Assembly: GCA_010692645.1 (NCBI GenBank) | Contig: JAAHGS010000018.1 | Span: 588 to 64,587, forward strand | Source: Symploca sp. SIO2E9 | Lineage (GTDB): Bacteria > Cyanobacteriota > Cyanobacteriia > Cyanobacteriales > Coleofasciculaceae | Direction: 5' to 3' | Length of the DNA stretch: 64,000 nt | Shown here: in pieces, positions 39,882-60,476 of the stretch | Position numbering within the stretch: the stretch's first letter is position 1 | Layout of the letters: each line of letters begins with the position of its first letter | Notes under the pieces: model-generated | Seen by the model: the letters and a program-made list of their open reading frames with translations, nothing else | Database searches by the model: none | Told to the model about the DNA's origin: nothing | Program-made: the position numbers and the translations under genes

Positions 39882-42566
39882 CTATTTTTTTGAGATTCCT
39901 ATTTTTGAAAAATCAACATTGCTTTCATTCGCCTGAGCTTGATTTAAGCAAGCCTGAAATTTTTCTGCCAACACTTGAACGTTAGGTTCTTGCAACATAC
40001 TCAAAGTTTTCCCAGGAACATCATGGAGTTCCAAACCTCCAGGAGCCATCTTGCTCCATCCTAGGTCAGGTTCATAGAAGTCGATATCATCAAGCCAACG
40101 GAATAGGGTTACATGACCTTGGTAGACTTTCGTGGGCATGAATACCCACTTCTCATTTCCTTTCGCTTTTTTCCGGCGATAAAGGAAGTCTTGGCAGGTT
40201 TGAGGCAAAGGGAGCCCAAGCTTCTCGTAAAATTTGCAGTAGAGTTGCATGAACCGATTTGTAAGCCGATGTATTACCATATTTCTTCTTTCCAACAAGT
40301 AGGGATAACCACTTCTTGAAAAGTGATTCCAATGTGCAGAGACCTTCTCAAAAAAGGACATTTTTTTGAGAGAATTATGATCTGTCATCGTTCCTAACAT
40401 AGCCATCAGAGACACCTTTTGACCTTGTGCGCGGAGTTGTTCAGCAATTTTATAGGCTACTCTACCTCCGCACTGTATACCTGCTAGAAAATAAGGACCT
40501 TCAGGTTGGATATTAGACAACTCTTTCATGTAGTAATCAGTAACATTATTAATCTGATGCTGGGAAACTTCATCCATTAATCCAACTGATAGACCATAAA
40601 TAGGTTGTTCAGGATCTAAATGACTGGCTAAAGGTCGGCAGAATTGAAGACCCTCCCCAAGTACATGGAAAAAAAACAAAGGAGGTTTTTTTCCACCAGG
40701 TTGAATGATTGCTAATGAGGGATTTAATGCTGACGATTCTTTCTGAGACAAAATTCTGCTTATTTCCTCAATCGTCCCAAGCTGAAAGAGAGTAGACATC
40801 GGCAGATTTTTGCCAAGACTCTTCTCAATTTCACCAACTAACCTTAAAGCTAACAGTGAATGCCCTCCTAGCTCAAAGAAGTTATCTCTGATGCCAATGG
40901 GCTTCTTGCCTAAAACTTTTTCCCAAATTCTTGTGAGCTGAAGTTCTAATTCGTTACTAGGAGACACAAAGGTTTCTTCAGACTCTTTGCCATTGACCTG
41001 GGAGTAGTTTGGGTAGCCATTCTTGTCAAACAATTGACCAGAGTTAGTTTCTGTTAACAGGGGCAAGTCCGAGAGCTGTTGCTCTGGATTAGTAACAATA
41101 CTTTCAAGTAAAGTCTGAAAATTCCTGATTATCTGCTCAATAGTACTGGTATTAAATAGATCAGTTTTATAATCGAGTACCGCCCTCAGTTCTCCCCTTT
41201 GCTCCTCCATCGACAGTGACAAATCAAAATTCGCTGTCCCGTTGCCGACATCGAAGGAACTAACGCTGATTCCATGTAACTCTAGAGGTTGAGTTGGGGT
41301 ATTCTGAAGCACTAACATCGCCCGAGACAAAGGAGTGCTAATTAGATTGGGCAACTCTGCTATTTTCTGAAAAGGCACATCCTGGTTATCATAAGCCCCT
41401 GAGGCGACTTTTTGTACTCGGGTTAATAGCTCCCTAAAACTTGGGTCTCCAGACAAATCAGTACGCATCAAAATGATATTATTGAAGTATCCAATTAGCT
41501 CTTCGGTCTCGATGCGACCGCGACAGGCGACGGGCGAACAGATGATCATATCTTTCTGCCCTGTATATCTGTGGAGCAACGCTTTGAATGCTGCTGTGAG
41601 AGTCATAAATAGAGATACTCCATGATGACGACTCAGAAATTTGAGGGCCTCGGTTAGGTTTTGATTGATTACCAGAGATTGACGCGCACCTCGGTAAGTT
41701 TGAGCTGAAGCTCTTGATCTGTCAATTGGTAGTTGTAGTGCTTCTAGGTTGCCCTCAAGTTGCTGTTGCCAGTATTCGAGCTGAGATTCGAGTACCTCAC
41801 CTGGTAGCCACTGCTGCTGCCAGTGAGCAAAGTCAGCATACTGGATAGGCAAATTAGAGAGCGAGGAGGGCTTATCAGCGCAGAAGGCATTATAGAAAGC
41901 TGTCAGCTCCCTAAAGAACACTTTAAAGGACCAACCGTCAGAGATTATGTGATGCATGACCAAGAGGAACACATGTTCCTCTTCAGCTAAGCGCAGGAGT
42001 TTTACACGCAAAAGTGGTCCTTGAGCTAGGTCAAAGGGTTGCAGAGCCTCCTGAGTTATCAACTGCTGGGCATGAACCTCCCGTTCTGATTGAGGGATGT
42101 CTCGGAGATCTATCACCGACACAATTGAGGGGATATCTGGGGAAATGACCTGAAAATTTTGTCCATCAACAGCCTTAAAAGTTGTTCTGAGAATTTCGTG
42201 GCGCTGCACAATGTCACTCAGACTCTTTTCTAGTGCAGCCAGATTGAGCAAACCTTTTAGGCGAAAAGCTACGGGAAGATTATAGACAGAACTGCCAGGC
42301 TCTAACTGATCAAGATTCCATAGGCGTTGCTGGGCAAAAGAGAGTGGCAGAGCTTCCTCCCTCGAAACAGGCAATATGGGCTCTTGGGCGGAACAGGTAG
42401 AAACATTTTTCAGAAACTTGAGGATTTCTGGTTTCCGCTGAGCAATCTCCAGTTTCAAAGTCTTGGTTAGAGCTCCTGAAGGGGCATCACATTCGAGCCG
42501 CTCCCCATTGACAGAAAGCTTGACATCGAGACTCCGAAGATGGGACATCAATTCCAAAGTGTTCAT
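39882..42566 (-). CDS. Terminal NRPS protein: TubC docking-C-PCP-TE, no A domain
   Basis: 894 residues; last protein of the line. Residues 1-54 (MSHLRSLDVKLSVNGERLECDAP) are a TubC-type beta-hairpin docking domain. The condensation domain follows (about 65-490) with the active-site HHIISDG at 205-211. A carrier domain has its pantetheine serine at Ser570 (DNFFELGGHSL), and a TE domain spans about 625-870. No adenylation domain is present, so the amino acid or nucleophile for this step must come in trans, or the C domain acts on something other than a loaded amino acid. The TE nucleophile position is Cys699 in GIQCGG, where the family has Ser. The usual LLD aspartate is MLG (Gly725), and the GHH/GDH histidine block is GKT (853-854). 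Function therefore departs from standard TE hydrolysis. Confidence 0.9.
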   Translation of the reverse strand: MNTLELMSHLRSLDVKLSVNGERLECDAPSGALTKTLKLEIAQRKPEILKFLKNVSTCSAQEPILPVSREEALPLSFAQQRLWNLDQLEPGSSVYNLPVAFRLKGLLNLAALEKSLSDIVQRHEILRTTFKAVDGQNFQVISPDIPSIVSVIDLRDIPQSEREVHAQQLITQEALQPFDLAQGPLLRVKLLRLAEEEHVFLLVMHHIISDGWSFKVFFRELTAFYNAFCADKPSSLSNLPIQYADFAHWQQQWLPGEVLESQLEYWQQQLEGNLEALQLPIDRSRASAQTYRGARQSLVINQNLTEALKFLSRHHGVSLFMTLTAAFKALLHRYTGQKDMIICSPVACRGRIETEELIGYFNNIILMRTDLSGDPSFRELLTRVQKVASGAYDNQDVPFQKIAELPNLISTPLSRAMLVLQNTPTQPLELHGISVSSFDVGNGTANFDLSLSMEEQRGELRAVLDYKTDLFNTSTIEQIIRNFQTLLESIVTNPEQQLSDLPLLTETNSGQLFDKNGYPNYSQVNGKESEETFVSPSNELELQLTRIWEKVLGKKPIGIRDNFFELGGHSLLALRLVGEIEKSLGKNLPMSTLFQLGTIEEISRILSQKESSALNPSLAIIQPGGKKPPLFFFHVLGEGLQFCRPLASHLDPEQPIYGLSVGLMDEVSQHQINNVTDYYMKELSNIQPEGPYFLAGIQCGGRVAYKIAEQLRAQGQKVSLMAMLGTMTDHNSLKKMSFFEKVSAHWNHFSRSGYPYLLERRNMVIHRLTNRFMQLYCKFYEKLGLPLPQTCQDFLYRRKKAKGNEKWVFMPTKVYQGHVTLFRWLDDIDFYEPDLGWSKMAPGGLELHDVPGKTLSMLQEPNVQVLAEKFQACLNQAQANESNVDFSKIGISKK

Positions 42567-42633
42567 AGCAAAATATTCTCTAGAGTTGGTAGGTCAAACA
42601 AAAACTGAGATTGAGTTGTATAGCGCTACGCGC

Positions 42634-42664
42634 AAGGCAGAAGGCAGAAGGCAGAAGGCAGAAG
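42634..42664. repeat. Heptamer tandem repeat (AAGGCAG)
   Basis: Four copies of AAGGCAG plus a partial copy, in the 223-base gap between the last PKS and the terminal NRPS genes. It is preceded by TATAGCGCTACGCGC, which matches the end of the ~100-bp dispersed repeat. The same heptamer family appears at 8346-8362. Confidence 0.85.
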
Positions 42665-42789
42665 TTGACTGTGACAAGGTTTTAGCGATTTAGCTTGTCC
42701 TAACCTTAATACTTACTGCTATACTCAAAGATCTGATTTACTGGTTTTGGAGAGACAAAGAAAGAGTTACCTCTTGGTATAAAAGTTGC

Positions 42790-45700
42790 TCAAAACGAAA
42801 TCTGCTCACGATCTTCTTCAGCATTGCCTGAAGTTTGATTGCTTTCGGGTGCAGTATCCTGGTTTTGAGTAGCTTGGGTTGCCCAAAGGATTGTCTCGAC
42901 CTTCTCAGCTAACTCGGTCACTGTAGGTGCCTCAAAGAGGATGTTTGGGGATAGATTAACCTCAGGGAATTCTGTGCGCAACCGAGAAATGACTTGAATC
43001 GCCACCAGGGAATCTCCTCCCTGTTCAAAGAAGTTGTCGTCTCTGCCAACCTGCTCAAGTCCAAGCAATTTTTCCCAGATGCTAGCTAATGTCTGTTCTA
43101 ACTCATTAGCAGGAGCGACATAGGGCTTGAGCAAACTGGGTCTTGTATAGGAGGAGGTTGAGGCTTCTGGCTCAGAAGTGTCTGATTCTTGTAAAGCGTC
43201 AAGCTTGAGCCATTGATTAATCCTCGTTTGCAGGTCTCCAGTCGAAACAACAATCTGACTAATTCGACGCTGAGATAGAATCCGCTCAAAGGCATTAACG
43301 CCTTCGTTAGGTGCGATCGCAAATTTAGCTAAAGCAGACCCCCAAGATGGGTTTTGTTGCTGATTTTCCTGTAATTGCCAGCCATCCCAATTGACACTGA
43401 TCCAGGGGAGAGGGCTAGTCTGGTTATGCTGTTGCACAAACGCATCCATGAATATATTTACTGCCGAATAAGCAGCAAATCCTAATCCTCCTAACACTGA
43501 AGACAAAGAAGATAACAATAGACAAAAGTCTAACTCAACGCCTTCGACAACTTTTGATAATACCAAGAGTCCATATACTTTAGGTTGAAATAACGGCTCA
43601 CAATTAGCTTGATCAGCATCCCTTATAAAGGACATTTCTGGAATAATTCCTGCCGCATGGATGACTCCATTGAGCTGACCAAAACGTTCTTGAGCCTCAG
43701 AGACTACAGCTTGCATTTGTTGTTGATTAGCCACATCAGCACTAACCACCAAAACCTCAGCTCCCAACTTCTCTAGTTCCTGGACTTTCCGAATCTTGAG
43801 GCTTACAGGATCTTGCTCATCGTGAGTTTCTAGCCATTGTTGCCAACTATCTCTCGAGGGTAAGGTAGAACGTCCTGTCAGTATTAATTTCGCTTGTACA
43901 GTCTTTGCTAAGTGTTCAGCTAGGACAAGACCAATTCCTCCCAGTCCACCAGTAATTAAATAGACTCCTCCTTCCTTGAGTTGCGTAGTTTTTTGAGAAG
44001 ATGCGTTTAAGTGAATAGCTTCAAAGGTTTGTACCCAACGATGATAATTGCGGTAGGCAATCACTTGCTCAGAGGTATTGGCTTGTAATTCCTCTAACAG
44101 CAGGTCTATAAGTTGCTCGTTGCTTTTTCCCGCTTGGGGCAAAATAATATCTATACTGCGGCAGCTTATGCTGGAGTATTCTTGTGGAATGACCTTAACA
44201 GGTCCGAGTAAAGTTGTCTTCTCAGGGCAGATTAATTCATCTCCAGTCACCAGCTGCAGGTTATTGGAGACAACTGCAAGTTGAACTCTATGTGTCAAGT
44301 TCTGTTTATCAATAGCCTGAGCTAAAAATAGTAGACTGTAAAATCCTAAATCCTGAGCTTTATCAACTGATTGTGCCTGATTGTTCGGCGTAACACTCCA
44401 TAAATGAACAACTGTTTTTGCATGCTTGTTGAGTTTGCCAAGCTCACTGAGCAGGGCATGATAATCATTAGATTGTTGAGGATTAAGGGTATATACTCCC
44501 TCGTTGAGCTTGGCAAATTCTGAGCCAACCTTCACAGTAATGACATTGTGTCCTTTCAGTTCCAGTTGTTTTGCAAGTTGGCAGCCCAAGCCCCACTCAT
44601 CGAGAAATACAAGTGTGCAAGATTGAGCCAGCTCACTATTTTCTTGAAAAGCTGAGATAATAGAGCGTTTCCAGGATGGAATGTAGAACCAGTCTGCAAT
44701 ATCTTGTTTTTTGCCCGGTATAGCTTTAGTTTTAACAGTCTTAGCCTGCTTTGAAGGTTCAATCCAGTAACGCTTACTCTCAAAGGGATAGGTTGGCAAG
44801 GAGAGACGACAAGATTGCTGATGGGCATAGAATCGCGACCAATCAAGCTGTACACCTGCAAGCCAAAGTTTACCCAAGGTGGTGAGCAAAAACGCTACAT
44901 CTGATTGGTTGTCTTTAGGATGGCGTACTGAAGTGAGAATAGTTTGCTGGACTGTTTGATCTTGATTTCGCTTAGCTAATGTGCTTAAGTTGCGTCCAGG
45001 ACCAACTTCTAGCATAATTTGCTCTGGTTTGGACAACAACTGTTGCAGTGCCTCAGCAAAACGTACTGTTTGCCGCAGATGTTTTGCCCAATAGCTGGGA
45101 TCGGTTGCTTCTTCTGCTGTAATCCAGGTACCAGTGACGTTGGACAGATAGGGAATTTGTGGAGGCTTGAGGCTGAGTTGTTTCACCCGCTCAGTGAAGG
45201 GTTCCAAAATAGGTTCCATCATCTCTGAATGGAAAGCATGAGAAGTATGGAGCTTGCGGCATTCTACCCCTTGTTCAACCAGTTGCTTTTGTAATGTTTC
45301 TATGCTGTCGATAGAACCGGAAACCACACACTGGGATGGTCCATTAATTGCTGCCACTTGCAGAGATATTCCCTGGAAGGTTTCTGCAGCCAGCAAGGAT
45401 TGCAACTCCTGATCTGGCAGTGGTACAGCAAGCATAGCACCAGCAGGAAGTTGCTGCATCATCTGTCCTCGGGCAGCCACCAGGGATAAGGCATCCTCTA
45501 AAGAGAAAACCCCTGCCAGACAAGCTGCTACATATTCACCGATACTGTGACCAATCATTGCCTGAGGATTTACCCCCAACGACATCCATAACTTAGCAAG
45601 GGCGTACTCGATTACAAACAGTGCTGGTTGGGCAATTGCAGTCTGTTGCAGTTGCTTGGCTGCCTGATCACTCTGTTGTTCGGTTGGATACAACAAATCT

Positions 45701-47460
45701 CGCAGGTCGATTCCCAGGTGAGGTTGGAGCAACTCTGAGCATTGATCTACCTGTTGGCGAAATCTCGGCTCAACCTGGTAGAGTTCCAGCGCCATGTTCA
45801 CATACTGTGATCCCTGCCCTGAGAACATAAAGGTAACAGATTGCTCTGTGGACTCTTGAAAGTTTGTAAAAACTCGTTGCGGATCAAGAGTCTGAAGTGC
45901 AATTGCCCCATCCTTGGCATCTTGACAAATTACTATCCGGCGATAATTAAAAACCTGACGACCAACGCTTAGGGTGTAAGCTACATCTGTCAAATTAATC
46001 TCTGGATTATCAGTGAAATACTCAGCTAGATTAGTTGTAGCAGTTTCTAAAGCTGAACTGGTTTTAGCCGAGAGCAGTAACAGTTGAGGCTTGTTCCCCT
46101 GTTCTATAACTTCCCTATTGGAGAGCTTTTCTACAGGAGGAGCTTCTTCTAAGATTACATGAGCATTTGTACCCCCAATACCAAAAGAGCTTACCCCAGC
46201 TCGGCGAGGAGTCCCGTTAGCTTTCCATTCTGAGAGTTCATTATTGACGTAGAAAGGACTATTCGCGAAATCAATCTTGGGATTGGGTTGTTCAAAGTGT
46301 AGCGTCGGCGGCAGCAATTTGTGTTTAAGGGCGAGGACAGTTTTGATTAGACCAATTACGCCAGCTGCTGTATTCAGATGTCCGAAATTGGTTTTCACCG
46401 AACCAATAGCACAGAAGTTCTGTTTCTGGGTGCTGGCACGAAAAGCTTTGGTCAGCGCGGCAATTTCAATTGGGTCTCCCAGAGTGGTTCCAGTACCATG
46501 GGCTTCTATATAGGTAATGGTCTCGGCGTCAATTCCAGCTACATCCTGAGTCTCACAAATCACTGCCGCCTGACGATCTACGCTAGGAGCTGTATAGCCA
46601 ACTTTTCTAGAGCCGTCGTTATTAATAGCTGAGCCTTTGATCACGGCATGGATCTCATCTCCATCTGCGATCGCATCTGCCAGCCGCTTGAGAACAACAA
46701 TTCCTAAACCATTGCCGCCAACTGTTCCCTGGGCTTGGGCATCAAAAGCACGACAATGCCCATCGGGAGAAAGAATCATGCCCTCTTGATATAAATAGCC
46801 AGCTTGGTTGGGAAGGAGTACTGAAACTCCACCAGCCAAAGTCATATCGCATTCGTTATTGAGCAAACTTTGGCAAGCTAAATGGACGGCAACTAGTGAA
46901 GTGGAACAGGCAGTTTGAATATTAATACTTGGTCCAGTGAGATTTAATTTATAAGAAATTCGTGTGGGTAGATAATCTTTATCATTGCCCACCATCACCT
47001 GATAATTTGCTGCTGGTTCTGAGAGGTCAAGCTGTTGAGCTAAGTTATTGAGTACATAAGTGTTCATGCCTGCACCTGCATAAACACCAATTGAACCTTC
47101 GTATCTTTCTGGATCGTAACCAGCACGTTCTATAGCTTCCCAGGCACACTCTAGAAAAAGACGGTGTTGTGGATCCATGATTTGAGCTTCTTTGGCACTG
47201 AAGCCGAAAAAGGAAGCGTCAAACAGCTCAATATCTGAGAGTTTGCCAAATGCTTTGACGTAATTAGGGTTATTCAATAAGGCGCGGTCTATACCTACAG
47301 ACTCTAATTCAGAGTCAGAGAAAAAGGAAATAGATTCCACACCATTTAGCAGATTCTGCCAGAAAGTATTGATATCTTTTGCTCCTGGTACGCGGCAGGA
47401 CATGCCGATGATGGCAATATCTAACTCATTAATATAATTGGATAAATCTGGTTCATTCAT
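42790..47460 (-). CDS. Type I PKS module KS-AT-KR-carrier
   Basis: 1556 residues. KS about 14-440: Cys185 in TACSTSL, EAHGTGTTLGD and GSVKTNFGHL supply the Cys-His-His triad. AT about 535-830: GHSIGEY holds the catalytic serine, and SHAFHS marks a malonyl-CoA-selective AT. KR about 1150-1345: TGGLGGIG binds NADPH, and the catalytic residues are in LLLSSLSSVLGG and AAYSAVN. The LDD motif of B-type KRs is absent. The carrier domain (Ser1484 in DNFFEQGGDSL) looks more like an NRPS-style PCP. There is no DH, ER or MT. The acidic C-terminal tail (GNAEEDREQISF) fits a short motif that binds the TubC-like docking domain of the next protein. The acidic start (MNEPDLSNYINELD) may pair with the basic tail of the preceding NRPS. 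Confidence 0.95.
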   Translation of the reverse strand: MNEPDLSNYINELDIAIIGMSCRVPGAKDINTFWQNLLNGVESISFFSDSELESVGIDRALLNNPNYVKAFGKLSDIELFDASFFGFSAKEAQIMDPQHRLFLECAWEAIERAGYDPERYEGSIGVYAGAGMNTYVLNNLAQQLDLSEPAANYQVMVGNDKDYLPTRISYKLNLTGPSINIQTACSTSLVAVHLACQSLLNNECDMTLAGGVSVLLPNQAGYLYQEGMILSPDGHCRAFDAQAQGTVGGNGLGIVVLKRLADAIADGDEIHAVIKGSAINNDGSRKVGYTAPSVDRQAAVICETQDVAGIDAETITYIEAHGTGTTLGDPIEIAALTKAFRASTQKQNFCAIGSVKTNFGHLNTAAGVIGLIKTVLALKHKLLPPTLHFEQPNPKIDFANSPFYVNNELSEWKANGTPRRAGVSSFGIGGTNAHVILEEAPPVEKLSNREVIEQGNKPQLLLLSAKTSSALETATTNLAEYFTDNPEINLTDVAYTLSVGRQVFNYRRIVICQDAKDGAIALQTLDPQRVFTNFQESTEQSVTFMFSGQGSQYVNMALELYQVEPRFRQQVDQCSELLQPHLGIDLRDLLYPTEQQSDQAAKQLQQTAIAQPALFVIEYALAKLWMSLGVNPQAMIGHSIGEYVAACLAGVFSLEDALSLVAARGQMMQQLPAGAMLAVPLPDQELQSLLAAETFQGISLQVAAINGPSQCVVSGSIDSIETLQKQLVEQGVECRKLHTSHAFHSEMMEPILEPFTERVKQLSLKPPQIPYLSNVTGTWITAEEATDPSYWAKHLRQTVRFAEALQQLLSKPEQIMLEVGPGRNLSTLAKRNQDQTVQQTILTSVRHPKDNQSDVAFLLTTLGKLWLAGVQLDWSRFYAHQQSCRLSLPTYPFESKRYWIEPSKQAKTVKTKAIPGKKQDIADWFYIPSWKRSIISAFQENSELAQSCTLVFLDEWGLGCQLAKQLELKGHNVITVKVGSEFAKLNEGVYTLNPQQSNDYHALLSELGKLNKHAKTVVHLWSVTPNNQAQSVDKAQDLGFYSLLFLAQAIDKQNLTHRVQLAVVSNNLQLVTGDELICPEKTTLLGPVKVIPQEYSSISCRSIDIILPQAGKSNEQLIDLLLEELQANTSEQVIAYRNYHRWVQTFEAIHLNASSQKTTQLKEGGVYLITGGLGGIGLVLAEHLAKTVQAKLILTGRSTLPSRDSWQQWLETHDEQDPVSLKIRKVQELEKLGAEVLVVSADVANQQQMQAVVSEAQERFGQLNGVIHAAGIIPEMSFIRDADQANCEPLFQPKVYGLLVLSKVVEGVELDFCLLLSSLSSVLGGLGFAAYSAVNIFMDAFVQQHNQTSPLPWISVNWDGWQLQENQQQNPSWGSALAKFAIAPNEGVNAFERILSQRRISQIVVSTGDLQTRINQWLKLDALQESDTSEPEASTSSYTRPSLLKPYVAPANELEQTLASIWEKLLGLEQVGRDDNFFEQGGDSLVAIQVISRLRTEFPEVNLSPNILFEAPTVTELAEKVETILWATQATQNQDTAPESNQTSGNAEEDREQISF

Positions 47461-47618
47461 CTGAATAATCTCACTTCTTTAAATCAAATACTCGTAATTA
47501 TTGAACTTAAAAATATCTATATAATGCCTGATTTTTTATTTGTAAATAGTTGCTTGTTGATATAGATTCAAGATTGTGTTTTTTTAAGTTCAATGCTTCG
47601 GAAATTCTGTAGTTTTAA

Positions 47619-50600
47619 TTAGCTTTGGCGCTTTCTTGCAAGTAGACGATTTCTTCGCTTCTGACCACGGTCATCACTAGGTTGAGAAGAAAGCTGTCCA
47701 TTTTGTTGTTGACTTAAGTATTCTCTCAAAGAGTGGATAGTTGGGTATTGAAACATCTCAACAATTGATAACTCTTGTCCAATAATTGTTGATAATTTGC
47801 TATGAATCTGCATCATGAGTAATGAATTACCCCCTAGCTCAAAGAAATTGTCATGAATACCCACCTTCTCTAGTTGAAGCGTCTGCTGCCAAGCCTCAGC
47901 TAGACGTTGCTCAACCTCAGTTTGAGGCATTGCATAAGTCGTTTCCAGCTCTGGGCGAAGACCTTCTGGAGCAGGTAGCCCTCGGCGGTTTACTTTGCCG
48001 TTAGGGGTCAGAGGCATAGCCTCCAAGAACATAAAGGCTGACGGTATCATATAGTTGGGCAGTTTATCTTTGAGGAAGCGGCGCAGTTCGCTGGTTGTAG
48101 GGGGTGGTTCCTGATCACAAACTACATAAGCTGCTAAGCGCTTGTCTCCAGGTATATCCTCACGAATCATGACCACAGCTTCTTTGACTTTAGGATGTTG
48201 ACTTAGTAAAGTTTCAATCTCTCCCAACTCAATGCGAAAACCATTAATCTTCACTTGATGATCGATGCGACCTAGACATTCAATGTTGCCGTCTGGCAGG
48301 TAACGTGCTAAGTCTCCAGTTCGATAGAGACGGGCTCCAGGCTCGTCGCTAAAGGGGTTAAGAACAAATTTTTGATCAGTAAGTTCATGTCGGTTGAGAT
48401 AACCTCGTGCTAGACCTACTCCACCAATTAGTAACTCTCCCGGCTGTCCCACTGGAACTAGTTGAAGTGAGTCATATTTCTGGTACAGCCCAGGATCTAC
48501 TATATAGATCTGGGTATTGGCAATGGGCTGCCCAATGGGGATAAGAGTGTTTCCAGGCTCTACTCGATAAACTGCTGACCAGATAGTAGTCTCAGTAGGA
48601 CCGTACATATTCCAAACACTGGTACTCCTGTCTAGAAGTTGATTGGCTAGATTTAGGGACAATGCTTCTCCGCCACAGAGAATTTTGAGTGTGGAAGAAC
48701 CCTGCCAGCCTGCTGTTAATAGCATTCGCCAAGTGGCAGGTGTTGCTTGCATAATGGTTGTACCAGATTGCTCTAGAACTTGTATCAACTTGGTCGCATC
48801 CAAAGCAACTTCTCGCCTCGCCAATAGGACCTTAGCTCCTACTGTTATCGGTAAGTATAGTTCTAATACAGCAATGTCGAAGGAGATAGTAGTGACGGCA
48901 AGCAGGACATCTTGAGAAGTTAATCCAGGAGCTTGGCTCATGAACTTTAGAAAATTGACAACCGCTCGATGGATAATTTGCACTCCTTTGGGCTTACCCG
49001 TTGAGCCAGAGGTGTAAATGATATATGCTAAGTTATCTGATGCGACTTTACTATCTGGGTTATTCTCACTGTGTTGGGCAATTTTCCCCCAATCGCTATC
49101 AAGACATAAGACTTTTGCACAATTGTCTGGCAGCCTCAGGAATTGGTCTTGTTGAGTCAAAAGCACTGACAATTTGGAATCTTCAATCATCCAAGCTAAT
49201 CGTTCTTGGGGATAGGCTGGGTCTAGTGGCACATAAGCACCACCCGCTTTGAGGATTCCCAAAAGTCCCACCACCATTTCTAAGGAACGCTCTACACAGA
49301 TGCCTACTAGAACTTCTGGTCCTACTCCCATTGCTTGCAGGTAATGCGCCAGTTGATTGGCACGAGTATTCAACTCTCGATAGGTTAAGTGCTGATCTTC
49401 AAATACTACAGCGATCGCATCTGGTGTTCGCTCTACCTGAGCTTCAAACAACTGATGGATACACTTGTCCTGGGAATATTCTGTTTGGGTGTTATTCCAT
49501 TCCACCAACAACTGATGCTGTTCAGCTTCAGTTAGCAGTGGTAGTTTTGAAACTTGCTCCTCTGGATCCTTGACAATTCCTTCTAACAAGGTTTGGAAAT
49601 GCCCTGCCATCCGGTTAATCGTCACCGCATCAAACAAATCTGTATTGTATTTGAAAACCCCAAAAAGCGCATCCTTCCCTTCTACTGTTTCCAAGGTTAA
49701 ATCAAACTGACCTTCTTGCTGCTCCAGTTCAAAAGACTCCAATTCTAATTGTCCCCAACTTGCCTGGAGTGGTGTTTCGCTAGGTACTAATAGACCAGGA
49801 ACTTCTCCCAGGCGCTGCGGATTCAGGAAGTTAAATAGTACTTGGAACAGGGGTGAACGGCTGGGATCCCGGTTCGGTTGCAATTGTTCCACAAGTAAAG
49901 AGAAAGGATAATCTTGATAGTTGATCGCATCCAAGACCGTGCGCCGCACTTGAGAGAGAAATGATTTAAAAGTAGGATTTCCTGAAAAGGACGCTCGCAA
50001 AACAACTGGGTTAACGAAGTATCCCACAATTTCATCAAATTCTGCCTGAGAGCGACCTCCAGTGGGAGAACCCACTAATATATCTTCCTGACCTGTATAG
50101 CGGTAAAGTAGAACCTGAAAGGCTGCTAAGAGCAAGGTGTAAAGTGTAACTCCTTGAGTCTGCAACAGTTTCCTTAGCTGTTTGGTCAATGTCTCAGTAA
50201 GCTTCAAAGTATAGGAAGCTCCCTGATAGCTCTGCAAGGGCGGTCGAGGTCGGTCAGTAGGCAGGTTGAGTACCGGTAACTCACCAGCTAGTTGTTGTCG
50301 CCAGTAATTCCAAAGTTGCTCCCCTTTGGAACCTGCAAGCATTTGAGTCTGCCACTGCACGTAGTCTGCATATTGACTCTTCAACGGAGGCAAAGAAGCT
50401 ACTCTGCCAGCTTTTGCATCTGAGTACAACACCTGTGCATCATCCAACAGTGTCCCCATAGAACGGGCATCGTAGACAATATGGTGTAGGGTCAGCAAAA
50501 GTATGTGGTCTTGTTGAGAGCTAGTAAACAGATGCACTTTGAATACAGGTCCTCGTTGAAGATCAAAAGGATGTTCGTATGTTTTAACTACCTTCTCCTT

Positions 50601-50972
50601 CAGCTGTTCCCAGGTCAAGGTTGAGGCATCTATCTGCTCGAAGTAAACTTCCTGATACCCTTGAACCTCTTGAACAGATTTACCGTTTTGTACCTTGAAT
50701 GTGGTACGTAAGGTTGCATAACGATTAACTAGTCCCTGAAATGCTTGTCGCAAAGCTGAAACATCTACCTTTGAGCAGATACGTGCTGGGAAGGCAACAT
50801 TGTAAGCTTTACTTAATTTAGCACTCTGGTATAAAAACCATAGAGCTTGCTGACCATATGATAATGGATATACAGATTTTTCCCCGCTCGCTTTTTCCCG
50901 TAGTAGCTTTGCCAGAAGTAGACGCTTTTCCTCCGGCGAAAGGTTAATTTGGGAGCTAGAAATTTCATTCAT
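47619..50972 (-). CDS. NRPS module C-A-PCP (predicted glycine)
   Basis: 1117 residues. Condensation domain about 35-460 with HHIVYDA at 163-169 (the usual final Gly is Ala). Adenylation domain about 500-1000: YIIYTSGSTGKPKG, NMYGPTETTIW, LYRTGDL, GRIDHQVKINGFRIELGEIE and NGKVNR. PCP about 1020-1090 with Ser1050 in DNFFELGGNSL. Reading the Stachelhaus positions by eye gives D-I-L-Q-L-G-M-I-W-K, which is close to codes linked to glycine. No epimerase or methyltransferase is present. The start has a helical LSPEEKRLLLAKLLREK segment suited to docking with the preceding PKS, and the end is strongly basic (GQKRRNRLLARKRQS). It is 31 bases behind the preceding PKS gene. Confidence 0.95.
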   Translation of the reverse strand: MNEISSSQINLSPEEKRLLLAKLLREKASGEKSVYPLSYGQQALWFLYQSAKLSKAYNVAFPARICSKVDVSALRQAFQGLVNRYATLRTTFKVQNGKSVQEVQGYQEVYFEQIDASTLTWEQLKEKVVKTYEHPFDLQRGPVFKVHLFTSSQQDHILLLTLHHIVYDARSMGTLLDDAQVLYSDAKAGRVASLPPLKSQYADYVQWQTQMLAGSKGEQLWNYWRQQLAGELPVLNLPTDRPRPPLQSYQGASYTLKLTETLTKQLRKLLQTQGVTLYTLLLAAFQVLLYRYTGQEDILVGSPTGGRSQAEFDEIVGYFVNPVVLRASFSGNPTFKSFLSQVRRTVLDAINYQDYPFSLLVEQLQPNRDPSRSPLFQVLFNFLNPQRLGEVPGLLVPSETPLQASWGQLELESFELEQQEGQFDLTLETVEGKDALFGVFKYNTDLFDAVTINRMAGHFQTLLEGIVKDPEEQVSKLPLLTEAEQHQLLVEWNNTQTEYSQDKCIHQLFEAQVERTPDAIAVVFEDQHLTYRELNTRANQLAHYLQAMGVGPEVLVGICVERSLEMVVGLLGILKAGGAYVPLDPAYPQERLAWMIEDSKLSVLLTQQDQFLRLPDNCAKVLCLDSDWGKIAQHSENNPDSKVASDNLAYIIYTSGSTGKPKGVQIIHRAVVNFLKFMSQAPGLTSQDVLLAVTTISFDIAVLELYLPITVGAKVLLARREVALDATKLIQVLEQSGTTIMQATPATWRMLLTAGWQGSSTLKILCGGEALSLNLANQLLDRSTSVWNMYGPTETTIWSAVYRVEPGNTLIPIGQPIANTQIYIVDPGLYQKYDSLQLVPVGQPGELLIGGVGLARGYLNRHELTDQKFVLNPFSDEPGARLYRTGDLARYLPDGNIECLGRIDHQVKINGFRIELGEIETLLSQHPKVKEAVVMIREDIPGDKRLAAYVVCDQEPPPTTSELRRFLKDKLPNYMIPSAFMFLEAMPLTPNGKVNRRGLPAPEGLRPELETTYAMPQTEVEQRLAEAWQQTLQLEKVGIHDNFFELGGNSLLMMQIHSKLSTIIGQELSIVEMFQYPTIHSLREYLSQQQNGQLSSQPSDDRGQKRRNRLLARKRQS

Positions 50973-51003
50973 AACTATAAAGATGCTCTTAAACAGTCCT
51001 TCG

Positions 51004-54000
51004 TTAAATGTTTTGTGAAGACGACATAGAGCTTAATAATGCGTCGACTTCTTCATCTGTAAGTTGGTCGAGATTAGCCAACATTTTTTCAGCATTCGAT
51101 TGTTGGGCTTTTTTATTGATCTCAATCTGGGTCATTTTTGGGTCACCTGTAGCGGCTGTAGTAGCAGAGGTAGATGGGGTTAATTGTGCTGGTGTCAGTT
51201 GCTCACTCACCTGCATCGCTAGATTAGTAACACTAAGACCTTCCATGAATTTCACTGTTGGCACGTCTACATTCAAATGGATTGTTATCCATTTCCTGAG
51301 TTCGATAGCCATCAGGGAATCTAGCCCCATATTGTTCAAGGGTTGGTTTACGTCTAGTTGGGATGCATTAAGACCTAGGGTTTTAGCAACCTGCTCTTTA
51401 AGATAGGTAATCAAAAGTGATTTGCGATCATCGGCAGTGGCTTCGAGCAAATCTGTGGCTGACAACTGCCTACTACTCACTTGTCGTTTCTGCTGATCAA
51501 ACTCAGAGAGTAAAGTCGGGGAACCTCCAGAAGGAAAGTGCTGCATAAACTTCGACCAGTCGATCGATAGTACTCCCACCTGAGCCAGATTTTGGCTAAG
51601 TAAGTCTCTTAACAACTGCACCCCAATTTCTGGTGCCATCGAATCAATCCCTAAGGAGGCTAAACGACGACGATCACGATGCTTCAAATTTGCTGCCATT
51701 CCTACCTCTGCCCATGGTCCCCAGTTAATGCTCAAGCCAGAAAGTCCCAGTGCCTGACGATGATGTGCTAGGGTATCCATGAAGGCGTTGGCAGCTGAAT
51801 AATTTCCTTGCCCCAATGAGCCTAGTAACGAGGCAGTTGAGGAGAAACAGACAAAGAAATCCAACTGCAGATCTTGGGTCAACGTGTGTAAATTCCAAGC
51901 TCCCCGTACCTTCGGTTCCATCACCTTGGTAAAACTTTCTGAATTTTGTTCCAACAGTAGCCTGTCATCTAGAACACCAGCAGCATGTATTATTCCCCGC
52001 AGTTGGGGCATAGATCCTTTAACCTGCTCCAACACCTTAGCCATCTGCTCTTGATTGGAGACATCGGCTTGAGCCGCTAGAACCCTAGCGCCTTGCTGCT
52101 TAATCTGGTTTAGGGCTTCCTGAGCCAGTGCCGAAGCCTCACTACGCCCCACTAAGACTAAGTTCCGTGCCCCTTGTTCTACCATGAAATGAGCAACCTT
52201 GAGTCCTAATGCTCCTAAACCACCGGTAATCAGGTAACTGCCATCAGCATGAAATTGTGGCTGTTGAGGTTTTACTGGTTGATGGTAAGGCAGCAAGCGG
52301 CAAACATAGCGCTGTCCATCTCGAAAGGCTAAATGGTCTTCCCCATCTGAGTTCCAAATCTCTGCTAATATGGTTGCTGCCTCATCCAAGGAAGCATCAG
52401 GTGCTAAGTCAAGCATTCCTCCCCAGAGTTCCGGGTGTTCTAATGCAACCACCTTACCTAGTCCCCACAAAGGAGCCTGAGCAACAGCCACTGAAGCAGT
52501 GTTGCTTGCAACTGGCACTGCTCCCTTACTCACCAGCCATAACCGAGGTGATGCTGAGCCATTGTATTTGACAAGCATTTGCACCAGATGCAATACACTA
52601 CCACAACTGAGAGTCTGAGCTTTTTCAAGGGATGAGATTGTCAACTCCTCTGAGAGTTCTGCCTCTAAACTCCACAGGTGTATTACTCCCTTAAGAGTTA
52701 GCTTTGTCATCCCCAAAGCTTCTTGGAACAGCCGCTCAAAGTGCGCTGGTTTGCTCGGGTTAAGACTCCAAGTTCCGGTTTCTGAAGCTTGATACTCTGT
52801 AGCGCTATAAACTAGAATGCAGTTTTGAGAGCGTTCTGTTAACAATTTTGCCAGGGCTTGTCCCATACCCCCTTGGTCAGCAAAAATTAGCCAGCTGCCA
52901 GGTTCAGAAGTTTGGTTTCCTGCCGATGATTTCGCCTGATTAGGTTTGAGCTGCCACTGTATCTGGTAAAGCCAGTCTTTGCTGGAGGTATTTTGCTGTT
53001 TATGTTGCTCAGCTAATACTTCCAGTAACTTAGGCAGTAATTTCATCTCATCTTCTGAGAATTTGTTTGCCCGCTCTAGTAGCTGCGCTAATTGCTGTGA
53101 GAATCTTCCAGCTTGATCTATTGGTTGAGTTGAGAGTTTGGCATTTCCTGGAGCCAGTAGTCTAGAAATTAGATTCTCGACATTTTCTTCGCTGAGGGAT
53201 GCTTGAATAGATTCAGGCTCTACCCAATAGCGCTGTCGCTCAAAGGGATAGGTTGGCAAAGGAAGGCGATTGCGCTGCTCATGGGCATAGAATCCGGGCC
53301 AATCAACTTCGATACCTTTAAGCCACAGCTGACCCAAGGTATTGAGCAAAAATGCAAGATCTGAGCTTTGCTCTTTGGGATGGCGCACTGAAGACAAGAC
53401 AAACCGCCCCTCTGCATCCGGATGCTGCATAGCTAATGATTTCAAAGTCCGTCCCGGTCCAACTTCCAATAGAATTCGATCTGGGTCTTGCAATAGTTCT
53501 AGCACCCCCTCACTAAAGTGGACTGTTTGGCGCAGATGCTTCGCCCAATAGCTCGGAGCTGTTGCTTCTGTCGCTGTGATCCATGTCCCAGTGACATTAG
53601 AAATATAAGGAATTTGAGGGGGATTGAGATTGATTTTACTAAAAAGGGAACTAAATTCTCCCAAGATAGGATCCATCATCTGCGAATGGAAAGCGTGGGA
53701 AGTATGCAGATGGCGACAGTCTATACCCTGTTCAAGGAGTTGCTTTTCTAAAGTCTCTATAGCATCCTTGGGACCGGAAACTGCGCAGACTGATGGTGCA
53801 TTGATTGCTGCCAGGGAGAGTTTTTCACCCAGAAGCGGGCGCACTTCCTGCTCCGGAAGGAAAACTGCAAGCAGTGAGCCACCTGGAAGTTTCTGCATCA
53901 TCTGTCCCCGTGCAGCTACTAGCATCAAGGCATCTTCTAAGGAGAACACCCCTGCTAGACAACCGGCGACATACTCACCAATACTGTGACCAATCATCGC

Positions 54001-55875
54001 TTGTGGTTTGCATCCCCAGCTCATCCACAAACGGGCTAAGGCATACTCGATTACAAAGAGTGCAGCTTGGGTAATAGCAGTCTGTTTAAGTTGATGCGTT
54101 GCCTGATTAGCTTCTTGTGGACTGGGATAGAGCAGATTGCGCAAGTCAAGTTTGAGGTGAGGTTTGAGAAGTTCTGAGCAGATATCTACCTGTTGACGAA
54201 ATATCGGCTCAATCTGGTAGAGTTCCAGCGCCATATTCACATACTGTGCACCCTGTCCTGAGAACATGAAGGCAACAGACCGATTCTTGACTTGTTGAGA
54301 GTGGTTCAAAACCGATTGCGGATCCGGTGTTTCTAGAGCAGAAACCGCCTGCTCCCGATTTTGGCAAATCAGCATCCGTCGATGTTGGAAGACCTGACGA
54401 CCCACTTGCAGAGTATAGGCGACATCGGCCAGATTCAACTGAGAATTCTGCTGGAGATGTCGAGCCAAATTTTGACTTGCAGCTTTGAGAGCTGCATCTG
54501 TTTTCGCCGAAAGCAGCAGTAACTGCCAAGTTCTTGAGGTTCCAGAGTTAACTGGGGTTGGAGCTTCTTCAAGAACAGCATGGGCATTGGTTCCCCCGAT
54601 GCCAAAGGAACTGACTCCAGCTCGGCGGGGAGTGCCGTTGGTTTGCCACGGTTGCAGTTTGGTGTTGACGTAAAAGGGACTATTAGCGAAGTCAATCTGA
54701 GGATTGGGCTGCTCGAAATGTAAACTGGGTGGAATCAGCTTGTGTTTGAGTGCTAGGGCTGTCTTGATCAAACCCACAACACCAGCGGCTCGATTCAGGT
54801 GTCCTAGGTTACTTTTAGCAGAACCGATCGCGCAGAAGCCCTTTTTGTCAGTACTGGCACGAAATACCTGGGTAAGGGCAGCGATTTCAATTGGGTCTCC
54901 CATGCCTGTGGCAGTTCCGTGGGCCTCAATATAGGAAATCGTCTCAGGATCGACCTCGGCAAGCGCCTGGGCTTCAGCGATCGCTTCTGCTTGACCATCT
55001 ATGCTAGGTGCTGTATAACCCACTTTTAATGAGCCATCGTTATTGATCGCTGAACCCCTAATTACTGCATAAATGTGGTCGCGATCCTCTAGGGCATCCT
55101 CTAGGCGCTTGAGTAGCACAATCCCTGCTCCACTGCCGAAAATAGTGCCCTGAGCTTTAGCATCAAAAGAGCGGCAGTGTCCATCAGGAGAAGCAATTCC
55201 ATCCTCTTGATAGAAATAACCTTGTTTGTGCGGGACTTGGATTGTCACTCCACCAGCTAATGCCATATCGCACTCTTGATCAAGCAAACCTTGGCACGCC
55301 ATATGAACAGCTACTAAAGAGGTAGAGCAGGCAGTATTGATGCAGACGGAAGGCCCCTTTAAGTTCATCTTGTAGGAGATGCGTGTGGGTACAAAGTCTT
55401 TATCATTACCAATTTCAATTTGCAAATCACCTGCAAGTTTGAGGAAATCGCGATTGGGCAGCAGGTTATAATGCAAGTAAGTGCTGAGGCTGGTACCGGT
55501 GTAAACACCAATTTTGCCATCGTAGGTTTGAGAGTTGTAGCCAGCATTCTCCATAGCTCCCCAAGCACATTCGAGTAATAGCCGATGCTGCGGATCCATC
55601 GCTTTAGCTTCTCGGGGGGAAAAGCCGAAGAAGGAAGCGTCAAACATCTCGATGTCCGAGAGCACAGAGCCAGCCTTGACATAGTTAGGATCACTCAGGG
55701 TCTCGGGGTCTATGCCTACTGCTGCTAATTCTTTATCGGTAAAGAAGGAAATGGACTCTATGCCATCGCGCAGATTCTGCCAGAACTTATCAACTGTCTT
55801 GGCTCCTGGAAAACGACCATCCATGCCGATAATTGCAATGCCTTCCAAGGAATCGGGCGTTGGGTAGTTATCCAT
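51004..55875 (-). CDS. Type I PKS module KS-AT-KR-ACP (first extension)
   Basis: 1623 residues. KS about 11-435: Cys183 in TACSTSL, His319 in EAHGTATGMGD and His359 in SNLGHL. AT about 535-835: Ser631 in GHSIGEY, with HAFH at 727-730 indicating malonyl-CoA. A helical segment links AT and KR (about 890-965). KR about 1195-1440: TGGLGALG for NADPH, and the LDD motif at 1302-1304 marks a B-type KR (expected D-configured hydroxyl); catalytic SSTASLLG, GNYSAANAF. ACP: Ser1520 in MGLDSLMAIEL. The C terminus ends LTDEEVDALLSSM, an acidic docking-like helix. The start overlaps the stop of the upstream loading gene by eight bases, so translation is probably coupled. Confidence 0.96.
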   Translation of the reverse strand: MDNYPTPDSLEGIAIIGMDGRFPGAKTVDKFWQNLRDGIESISFFTDKELAAVGIDPETLSDPNYVKAGSVLSDIEMFDASFFGFSPREAKAMDPQHRLLLECAWGAMENAGYNSQTYDGKIGVYTGTSLSTYLHYNLLPNRDFLKLAGDLQIEIGNDKDFVPTRISYKMNLKGPSVCINTACSTSLVAVHMACQGLLDQECDMALAGGVTIQVPHKQGYFYQEDGIASPDGHCRSFDAKAQGTIFGSGAGIVLLKRLEDALEDRDHIYAVIRGSAINNDGSLKVGYTAPSIDGQAEAIAEAQALAEVDPETISYIEAHGTATGMGDPIEIAALTQVFRASTDKKGFCAIGSAKSNLGHLNRAAGVVGLIKTALALKHKLIPPSLHFEQPNPQIDFANSPFYVNTKLQPWQTNGTPRRAGVSSFGIGGTNAHAVLEEAPTPVNSGTSRTWQLLLLSAKTDAALKAASQNLARHLQQNSQLNLADVAYTLQVGRQVFQHRRMLICQNREQAVSALETPDPQSVLNHSQQVKNRSVAFMFSGQGAQYVNMALELYQIEPIFRQQVDICSELLKPHLKLDLRNLLYPSPQEANQATHQLKQTAITQAALFVIEYALARLWMSWGCKPQAMIGHSIGEYVAGCLAGVFSLEDALMLVAARGQMMQKLPGGSLLAVFLPEQEVRPLLGEKLSLAAINAPSVCAVSGPKDAIETLEKQLLEQGIDCRHLHTSHAFHSQMMDPILGEFSSLFSKINLNPPQIPYISNVTGTWITATEATAPSYWAKHLRQTVHFSEGVLELLQDPDRILLEVGPGRTLKSLAMQHPDAEGRFVLSSVRHPKEQSSDLAFLLNTLGQLWLKGIEVDWPGFYAHEQRNRLPLPTYPFERQRYWVEPESIQASLSEENVENLISRLLAPGNAKLSTQPIDQAGRFSQQLAQLLERANKFSEDEMKLLPKLLEVLAEQHKQQNTSSKDWLYQIQWQLKPNQAKSSAGNQTSEPGSWLIFADQGGMGQALAKLLTERSQNCILVYSATEYQASETGTWSLNPSKPAHFERLFQEALGMTKLTLKGVIHLWSLEAELSEELTISSLEKAQTLSCGSVLHLVQMLVKYNGSASPRLWLVSKGAVPVASNTASVAVAQAPLWGLGKVVALEHPELWGGMLDLAPDASLDEAATILAEIWNSDGEDHLAFRDGQRYVCRLLPYHQPVKPQQPQFHADGSYLITGGLGALGLKVAHFMVEQGARNLVLVGRSEASALAQEALNQIKQQGARVLAAQADVSNQEQMAKVLEQVKGSMPQLRGIIHAAGVLDDRLLLEQNSESFTKVMEPKVRGAWNLHTLTQDLQLDFFVCFSSTASLLGSLGQGNYSAANAFMDTLAHHRQALGLSGLSINWGPWAEVGMAANLKHRDRRRLASLGIDSMAPEIGVQLLRDLLSQNLAQVGVLSIDWSKFMQHFPSGGSPTLLSEFDQQKRQVSSRQLSATDLLEATADDRKSLLITYLKEQVAKTLGLNASQLDVNQPLNNMGLDSLMAIELRKWITIHLNVDVPTVKFMEGLSVTNLAMQVSEQLTPAQLTPSTSATTAATGDPKMTQIEINKKAQQSNAEKMLANLDQLTDEEVDALLSSMSSSQNI

Positions 55876-58800
55876 TTTTTCTTACCTCCCTCTTTTGCTT
55901 GCGTTCTTTCCTGGCGTTTTGTTTTCGACGAACACGCTCATCAACCTCTTGAAAAGTCTCTTGCTCCTGTCGGTGGCTGTTGGATTTCTGCCTTAAATAG
56001 TTTGCTTGAGCATTGATAGTAGGATACTTATACAAGTCCACCAGGGAAATACTGCTATCAATTTCTTGCAGTTTGCTGAAAACCTGAACCATTAAGAGCG
56101 AAGTTCCCCCCAACTCGAAGAAGTTGTCGTGGATGCCCACCTGCTCAATACTTAGTACTTCCGACCAAATCTTCACCAGCATTTCTTCAACTTGGTTACT
56201 GGCAGCCACAAACTTTGACTCTAGTTCTGGGGGCCGAACCCGATGCTTTAGGGATTCAATCAGTTTGAGAATCTGTTCGGGATCCCACAACTCTTTGGTA
56301 ATCTTTTGAATCGCTAGAGTTTGTATCTGGTTATTAACTACTGAGTGCTTAGTGTTGAGAGTTGACGGTGAATTATTAACCAATTCGACAACCTCTGGGC
56401 TATAGGTTAGCTCCGCGGCCAACAACGCCTGGAACTTAAACAGCCAGCCCTCAGCTAGTTGCTGCTTGCAAGAAACACCCACAGCATCAAGAAAATCAAG
56501 TGCTGGTTGATTCTTCTGAGTAGGGATATAGGAAACATCGATCCAACTGAGTCCACGCTCTTTGGCAATTGCTCCCAATTTGGCAAGCATCTGATGCTCA
56601 ACACCTCTGCCTAGAGCCCGACAGCTTAATAGGAAGGAATCAATTTTGATACCATCGGCTACTGTCTTAAACAGGAGTACACCCACTAAGCCGTAATCTC
56701 CAAAGCGATCGCTCACCTCAACAGTAAGACACTCTAATTTACCGGATTCACAAAGCTGTTGAATCTCGCTTTCAGAGCGCCTGATTGTTGTCAAGTTGAA
56801 CTGGTTGGTTCGCTGTGTTAATTGCGAAACCCTCGCCAGTGTATGCGCTGCCATCGGCGCTATCTTAACCTCCAAGCCAAGACCCGTCAAGAAATCTTTG
56901 AAGGTTAGCGCCTCTTGGCGGAAACTCTCGCGCTCAATGTTTTGTTGATAGAGAGCAGTTCGCTGTTTATCTTCCTCAGTGCTATTCAAGCGATCAAAAG
57001 CCCAGACATGTTTGAGAAATTGGGGTATCTGATTTGGCTCGGAGGGTAGCTCAAGGGTCAGTACTGCCGGACAGTTGGCTTGAACCTCTGCACATTCAAC
57101 GGGATTATCATCGACAAAGATAAAGCTATCGAGTCCCAAATTAAGCTCTTGGGCTAGGGATTTGATATTCTCTGACTTAGGTTGCCAGTTAATTCGCGCC
57201 TGTACGATCTGATCACGTTTGAGAGGCATCTCCGAACGCTGCTCAAATACTGCCCAGACATCCTCTGGATTATTCTTGCTGCATAAACAGATCAACATCC
57301 CAGCATCATGCTGCGCCACCATGAATTCTTGCAGTGCCTTGCGAGGAGGGTCGATTTCAATGCCATCAGCTCCGTCCTCTCCGCAGACTCCTTTCCAAAG
57401 TGTTTGATCGCAGTCGAGTACAATCACTTTGTAGGGAGCGCTCTTAATAGCATGGATTTTGCGTGCGATCGCAGTTCCGAGAGCAGTGTAGAAAGCTGGT
57501 GTATAGGGGACATGACCGAACTCGTCTCCATGAGGGTCATAGTATGTTGAAACAGGGTAACTTGCACTCAATTGAGAGCTTTTGAGCAAGTACATACCAC
57601 TGACGCCATCAAGGTAGGAGGCTAAAAGCTCTTCCATCTGCTGGTAGAGACTGCTACGCTCTGAGTCAGCGAGGGCTTTAGGCGAGGCGGGACAAAGGCA
57701 AACTAGATGGGGAGTGGCCAAGCGGGAAGTTGCGCTTCTGAGGGCATTCCCAAGGTCTTTGACATTCTGCTCGATCTTGGCAGTATTGACTACAGGTTTT
57801 GCCGATGATGTATTTGCTTGCCAAGGGCGACGAGCATAGATATTGTAGAGACCTGAACCATGAAGCAGAGTCTCTTCTTCAATATGGAGTTCAAAACCTT
57901 TTTCTTGAAGTAAGCGTTTAACTTCTGTGATTACACTTCCTTCTTGGTCATGCACTTCCACTACCATTTGTTGAATGATTTCCCAATGCTGGTCTTCAAT
58001 CCCTTGGAGAACTGGCAACTCACTTTTCTCTGCATCGAGTTTGAGTAAATCAATCCGTTCGATATTATGCTCTTTAATCACACTCGAGAGAGTTCGCAGT
58101 TGGGCCTCAAAGGTTTCTCGATCAAGCCTACCAGCCATGAATTCGTCAGCGATTGCATCTAAGTGTTCTCCCTGAGCCACATTAATTTGCTGTAGCATGT
58201 TGAGGATAACAGCTCGGACTGCCTTTTCGTCTTGATCATTATCGGCATGGAAGCCTGAGAAAACTGATGAGTTGGGATAGAAGGTAAATGTTTCCTCCTT
58301 ATTTTCCGAAGATAGTCCGCAGTTGAAAAGGTTGGCGTTTTTGCAGTAGAGCCTGGCGTTGCTTTCTAGCTTCTTAAAAGCATGGGGTGCTGGTTCAAAG
58401 GAATAAACAGTTGCATTCGGGCATTTTTGTTGTACAAATAGGGTAAACAGACCAATATTAGCCCCGACATCAACCACACAGGCATCATCATTGAGGATAA
58501 TCCCATGCCTCATATAAACCTGATCAACAAAAAGTTCCTGGTAGAGATACTCAGTTTCATATTGATTAAGGTGCGCGATTTCTAGACGGTTGGGCAAGGT
58601 ATAGCGAAGCTGATTGGCCAGAACCTGTTCCTTTTGAGAGGAATCAATTGCCAGTTGTAGGCGATTGTCGCTTTGCTCCCAATCTTGCAATCGTAGCAGA
58701 ACCACATTTACCCCATCTTGATTACTACCAAGAAGGCTGTTGGGATTGAGAAGTTCTTGGAATACTTGATTATAGGCAGCAAACTCAGTTTTGAAGGGAA

Positions 58801-59806: not shown

Positions 59807-60476
59807 AAATACCTCTGAATTATTTTGTAAATAGAGTAAATTGTAGTGTTTCGTAATGCACTCTTCCGATTTATAGAGCTGCAATTTATAGGATGATTCA
59901 TACTGAATATAGTCTTGCCAAGAAATTGATTTTATGTATTCTACATAAGGATAGCCTCAAAATCCAGCTTAGCCAAGAGCTTAATGAGCATCTGATTGAG
60001 TTACTGATTCAAATTATTTAATGCCTTGGTATGAGACTGGAGTTTAGACTAAATCATTACCAGATTAGAGGTGTCAGAATTTACTGCTTTTAACATTTGT
60101 CACTATTAAAATTAACACCTCCTTATAAAGGTTTGGATTATAATACTAAAACTTCATAGTATTTTGAAGATTTTATGAATTTAATTTTGGGCAAATAATT
60201 TTTGTTTTGTAGTTGCATGCAGTAGCCTCATGGTATAGGAAAAAATGATCACTTTTCCAATAACAATGAAATTGAAAAAATATCTATATTAGGGGATGCA
60301 ATTAGCCCTTCTTGCTAAAATGAACTAGTCTCTACCAGAAAGCAGGCGATTATTACTTCTGCAACAAGATTAACACTCAGAGGCAGAGACCGCCTCATTA
60401 GTAAAATCAGTATCTTTTGCATGGAACTTGCAAAATTCAAAAATTTTCACAAACTCACAATGGGTAATTATCACCC
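59807..60476. other. AT-rich region upstream of the PKS-NRPS operon
   Basis: 670 bases without a supported gene between the GT2 stop codon (60477) and the operon start. It should hold the operon promoter. It is rich in A/T tracts. I cannot define boxes or operator sites reliably. No regulator gene is next to it. Confidence 0.5.

Follow-up and report, generated by a model that had tools for sequence, protein, structure and literature searches.

Can the thioesterase (TE) domain that closes the last assembly-line protein encoded in this DNA still cut its product free and, if not, what might it be kept for? The window, i.e. the whole stretch of 64,000 nucleotides that was analyzed, contains a PKS/NRPS cassette of five genes on one strand, running from P0005 through P0004, P0003 and P0002 to P0001, and it is the C-terminal domain of P0001, here called TE*, that raises the question. 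The working order of the five proteins is inferred from the gene order, and P0005 is presumably a glyceryl-type loading protein, as we take from established knowledge of the FkbH family. The core motifs appear intact in the KS, AT, KR and FkbH domains of the cassette, as they do in the C and T domains that P0001 contains. No KS precedes the DH domain at the start of P0005, and the motif of this DH, HCVYDRAILP, carries Asp in place of the Gly of HxxxGxxxxP. TE* itself is recognized by Pfam as a TE of family PF00975 with 57 bits against a cut-off of 26.4, and the coordinates of all features are collected in Table 1.

Table 1. Location in the window of P0001, its domains and key residues, and the remaining genes of the cassette.
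Feature	Coordinates	Strand	Basis
P0001, TubC_N-C-T-TE*, last assembly-line protein, 894 aa, without adenylation domain	39882..42566	-	Pfam
TubC_N docking domain, residues 5-53	42408..42554	-	Pfam PF18563
Condensation (C) domain, residues 70-512, HHIISDG motif intact	41031..42359	-	Pfam PF00668 and motif check
Carrier (T) domain, residues 544-604, GGHS intact	40755..40937	-	Pfam PF00550 and motif check
TE* domain, residues 625-880 approximately, TE fold lacking the catalytic triad	39927..40694	-	Pfam PF00975, Foldseek, alignments
Gln698, GxSxG nucleophile position	40473..40475	-	phmmer, MAFFT, AlphaFold
Cys699, Ser+1 position, invariant in triad-less clade	40470..40472	-	Clade alignment
Arg702 of CGGR motif, invariant in clade	40461..40463	-	Clade alignment
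Gly725, catalytic Asp position	40392..40394	-	phmmer and MAFFT alignments
Asp729, invariant in clade, absent from intact relatives compared	40380..40382	-	Clade alignment
Thr854, catalytic His position	40005..40007	-	phmmer and MAFFT alignments
P0002, KS-AT-KR-ACP, upstream partner of P0001 by gene order	42790..47460	-	Pfam and motifs
P0003, C-A-T	47619..50972	-	Pfam
P0004, KS-AT-KR-ACP	51004..55875	-	Pfam and motifs
P0005, DH-FkbM-FkbH-PCP, likely glyceryl-type loading protein	55868..59884	-	Pfam; role from FkbH family knowledge
Region shared with Symploca sp. SIO3C6, comprising the five genes and no others	39931..59855		blastn

At the positions of the nucleophile, of the Asp that follows strand β6 and of the His in the VPGxH block, TE* reads Gln698, Gly725 and Thr854, leaving no residue of the triad. 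Alignment by phmmer to TE domains of solved structure places both the Cys of AB3403 (4zxh) and the Ser of Pks13 on Gln698 and the Asp of each on Gly725, and the His of AB3403 falls on Thr854, with Lys853 as the residue before it (VPGDH versus VPGKT). The same register is found by MAFFT for 57 cyanobacterial TE sequences together with the domain of the window and SrfTE, and it is the solved-structure alignments that carry the weight. Both flanks of the elbow are in register (GPYFLAG- and -GGRVAY), and the position of Cys699 is occupied by Phe in most relatives. The AlphaFold model (mean pLDDT of 68, pTM of 0.62, with block means of about 80–90 near the elbow) has a strand at residues 692–697, Gln698 in the turn and a helix starting at Cys699, and in the control fold of a triad-intact homologue (L011) the Ser sits in exactly that turn. 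The best PDB matches of the model in Foldseek are TE domains with Pks13 at the top, and the overall r.m.s.d. is large owing to a poor lid in the model. Judged from these alignments, the catalytic Ser/Cys-Asp-His mechanism is not available to TE*.

The sequence-only reading of this locus had proposed replacement of the entire triad, which the phmmer, MAFFT and 109-domain alignments (see below) confirm. The motifs to which it pointed (GIQCGG, MLGT and VPGKT) are all present in the TE part of the minus-strand ORF at 39882–42566, and its reading of the Asp position, Gly725, was correct. It had located the nucleophile in the right elbow motif but at Cys699, one residue beyond the actual position, and had found the right block for the His, where the aligned residue is Thr854 and not Lys853. 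The alignment and structure prediction that it suggested as checks are those described here, and they returned a Pfam TE match and a model with Gln698 in the elbow turn.

To place TE* among its relatives, 109 TE domains that turned up in searches across several hundred genomes of cyanobacteria were aligned. The pattern (S/C)-(D/E)-H is kept in 100 of these, three more miss only a readable His, and nucleophile and His are both absent in only six, whose nucleophile/Asp/His positions read Q/G/T twice, M/G/T, Y/D/T, Y/N/N and F/N/N. Just one of the six, that of G015, retains an Asp at the Asp position. A maximum-likelihood tree of 107 rows unites these six in one group (support 100/100) that calls for a single change of state, in surroundings that are mostly Ser-Asp-His domains, and one loss in a triad-bearing ancestor would be the simplest reading. 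Relatives were also sought in viral contigs in order to deepen the alignment, and that scan returned none.

Members of the clade come from two families and five genera and are found on three kinds of assembly line. Symploca sp. SIO3C6 encodes, at the end of the same PKS/NRPS cassette, a protein of 83% identity in which GIQCGG, MLGT and VPGKT all recur, the members of G015 and G453 terminate C-A-T-TE* NRPSs, and those of G013 and G002 belong to C-T-TE* proteins encoded next to genes for a chorismatase, an AMP ligase and a luciferase-like monooxygenase. The monooxygenase gene accompanies TE* in these two genomes and in none of the other clade loci examined; that it might be a recruited tailoring enzyme is suggestive only. 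The distance from the Ser of the T domain to CGGR is 128 residues in five of the six members, and thus the T-TE* junction has been kept. Upstream of TE*, the C domain of G013 (L078:10657-13287, minus strand; G013:C9) has HQVVFDG where HHxxxDG is expected, and that of G453 (L128:12609-16664, minus strand; G453:C161) has a MPAICADAW motif. Going by these motifs, C and TE may both be inactive in G013.

Other unusual TEs were met in the same alignment. In a 1535-residue protein (L146:515-5119, minus strand; G009:C939) three tandem TEs come after a T domain, all three with Cys at the nucleophile position and the first with Phe at the His position, and another (L145:7402-11178, minus strand; G513:C151) has two TEs in tandem behind its T domain, of which the first shows the Cys elbow GGYCND and the second has Ser. 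There is also a well supported group of Cys-nucleophile TEs with a full Cys-Asp-His triad and elbows such as VYCGD, comprising L054 (from the same genome as the window, G000:C362), L068, the second TE of L070, L125 and the third TE of L146.

Could the product instead be released by another enzyme of the cassette? The block that blastn finds in common with Symploca sp. SIO3C6 consists of the five genes only and holds no second TE, ligase, tailoring or release gene, and a release enzyme inside the cassette is therefore rejected. The neighboring ABC transporter, MFS, glycosyltransferase and β-lactamase-like genes have no match at the Symploca sp. SIO3C6 locus or at the other clade loci examined. 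The last of these, just beyond the conserved cassette at 61562–62449 on the plus strand, encodes a Beta-lactamase2 (PF13354) protein, from a superfamily to which PBP-type release enzymes are distantly related.

Comparison of the window with Symploca sp. SIO3C6 gives a dN/dS of 0.235 (0.16–0.33) for TE* and 0.236 for the C domain of the same protein, while the TE of a triad-intact C-T-TE protein of the same two genomes gives 0.067 (0.033–0.109). TE* is thus under purifying selection, and its constraint is weaker than that on the triad-intact TE. The latter protein (G000:C223) is a paralogue in the same genome that resembles P0001 in lacking an A domain, has 45% identity to it in the TE and differs in having kept Ser-Asp-His; its counterpart in G001 adjoins chorismatase and AMP ligase genes. 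L023–L026 were considered as a further C-T-TE control and dropped, since L023 (locus L086), the one checked, had a poor C-domain alignment and an N terminus with the look of an AMP ligase.

Within the clade, where pairwise identity is 48–81%, 75 of the 249 gap-free columns are invariant. They include Val635–Gly639 of the oxyanion loop, Cys699, Gly700, Gly701, Arg702 and Asp729, which lies four residues past the lost catalytic Asp position; neither Cys699 nor Asp729 occurs in any of the 11 intact relatives compared. The nucleophile column (Q, M, Y, F) is among the most variable, at the 8th percentile, and the Asp column varies too. The only His residues invariant in the clade, His745 and His848, are also common in those intact relatives, and comparison of the six members with the 11 revealed no clade-specific His in place of the lost one. 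Among the substitutes named in the sequence-only reading (Asp729, His730 and His848), Asp729 does stand out, but neither His qualifies as a new base, as the column of His730 reads H, H, E, D, A, N and His848 also occurs in the majority of the 11 intact relatives, whose catalytic His is a separate residue.

On balance, and with some reserve, we consider it probable that TE* is catalytically dead in the Ser-Asp-His sense and yet a retained TE fold in the role of a carrier-bound platform or gate, the product leaving by another route. A dead hydrolase with a retained fold is proposed because no Ser/Cys-Asp-His is available and no clade-specific His could serve as base, and the sequence-only reading had already suggested a dead TE or one with a gating or binding role, which fits the data. 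Such a pseudo-thioesterase would be a fixed trait of one clade among the terminal modules of cyanobacteria; it would still dock the preceding carrier protein, and it may hold the carrier-bound chain, shield it or bring in a partner acting in trans. The terminal C domain could then transfer the chain to an acceptor loaded in trans, or the product might exit through a trans-acting hydrolase or by spontaneous cyclization. We count in favor of this explanation the Q/G/T residues, their recurrence in a second genome, the 100/100 clade, the variable nucleophile column next to invariant Cys699–Arg702, Asp729 and Val635–Gly639, the dN/dS, the T-TE* spacing shared by five of six members and the varied assembly lines, together with the non-canonical C motifs of G013 and G453 and a cassette with no second TE or release gene. 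Counted against it is a dN/dS above that of the triad-intact TE, which would be expected of a partly vestigial domain too. A bolder version, that the TE fold has turned into a new non-hydrolytic terminal domain (a platform, a gate or a different catalyst built on x-C-G-G-R and Asp729) that has spread across different cyanobacterial synthetases and implies an unrecognized ending of biosynthesis, is possible but doubtful.

It is rather unlikely, though deserving of weight, that TE* is a vestige whose releasing function has moved elsewhere and whose fold is kept for the stability of the terminal module or has simply not yet been deleted. The free drift of the catalytic positions and the weaker constraint relative to the intact TE are what such a remnant would display, but the dN/dS is well under 1 and equals that of the C domain, nearly a third of the gap-free columns are invariant, among them the clade-specific Cys699, Arg702 and Asp729, and the domain persists in five genera and on assembly lines of different kinds. 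Somewhat less likely again is a repurposed catalyst that works by another mechanism through residues such as Cys699, Arg702 and Asp729, e.g. acyl transfer or ring closure by no more than binding and positioning. The invariance of x-C-G-G-R and Asp729, the absence of Cys699 and Asp729 from the 11 intact relatives compared and the kept oxyanion loop would suit it; against this, Cys699 is the first helix residue of the model and lies off the elbow, the two invariant His are shared with intact relatives, and invariance among six sequences of one ancestry is weak evidence.

A classical Cys-TE with Cys699 as nucleophile is very improbable. This Cys does adjoin the elbow, and Cys-TEs are known both in the 109-domain alignment and as SulM and ObiF (PMC11298585), but in those of the alignment it is the Ser position that the Cys occupies, Asp/Glu is kept and, apart from one case, so is the His. 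The placing of the AB3403 Cys on Gln698, the register on both flanks and the turn of the AlphaFold model speak against Cys699 as the nucleophile, since it lies off the apex of the elbow, and the His position is a Thr. We found no support for a sequencing, assembly or annotation artefact, which is refuted by an open reading frame, the same motifs in Symploca sp. SIO3C6 and similar motifs in four more genomes.

Among known systems, type I TEs (PF00975; the TEs of Pks13, EntF and AB3403) share with TE* the fold, the position after the T domain, the oxyanion loop and the GG of the elbow, and differ in having the nucleophile, Asp and His that TE* lacks. The TEs of SulM and ObiF use an elbow Cys as nucleophile, with the His kept and the Asp relocated (PMC11298585); they resemble TE* in fold, in a Cys near the elbow and in an unusual Asp position, whereas TE* has Gln at the elbow and Thr at the His position. 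The analogy from which we infer the platform or gate role is with the X domain of glycopeptide antibiotic NRPSs, a derivative of the C domain that has lost its catalytic motif, is kept in the termination module and recruits P450s (PMC8949500). TE* likewise is a core-domain fold that has lost its motif and is held in a terminal module under selection; it descends from a TE and not from a C domain. No description of a triad-less clade of type I terminal TEs was found in the literature searched, which, being open-access only, is weak evidence of novelty.

Since selection has preserved the disarmed form in six related domains from five genera, TE* probably serves a non-cutting job, the product being released by another route. 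Gene-cluster predictors generally read a C-terminal TE as the release step, and triad-less terminal TEs would mislead them. A selected clade of this kind would mean that there are pathways whose products are released by a route for which no description was found in the literature searched. With six members and the invariant Cys699, Arg702 and Asp729 in hand, the question of function is directly testable, and should it prove to be a platform, TE* would match the C-derived X domain as a counterpart that arose from a TE.
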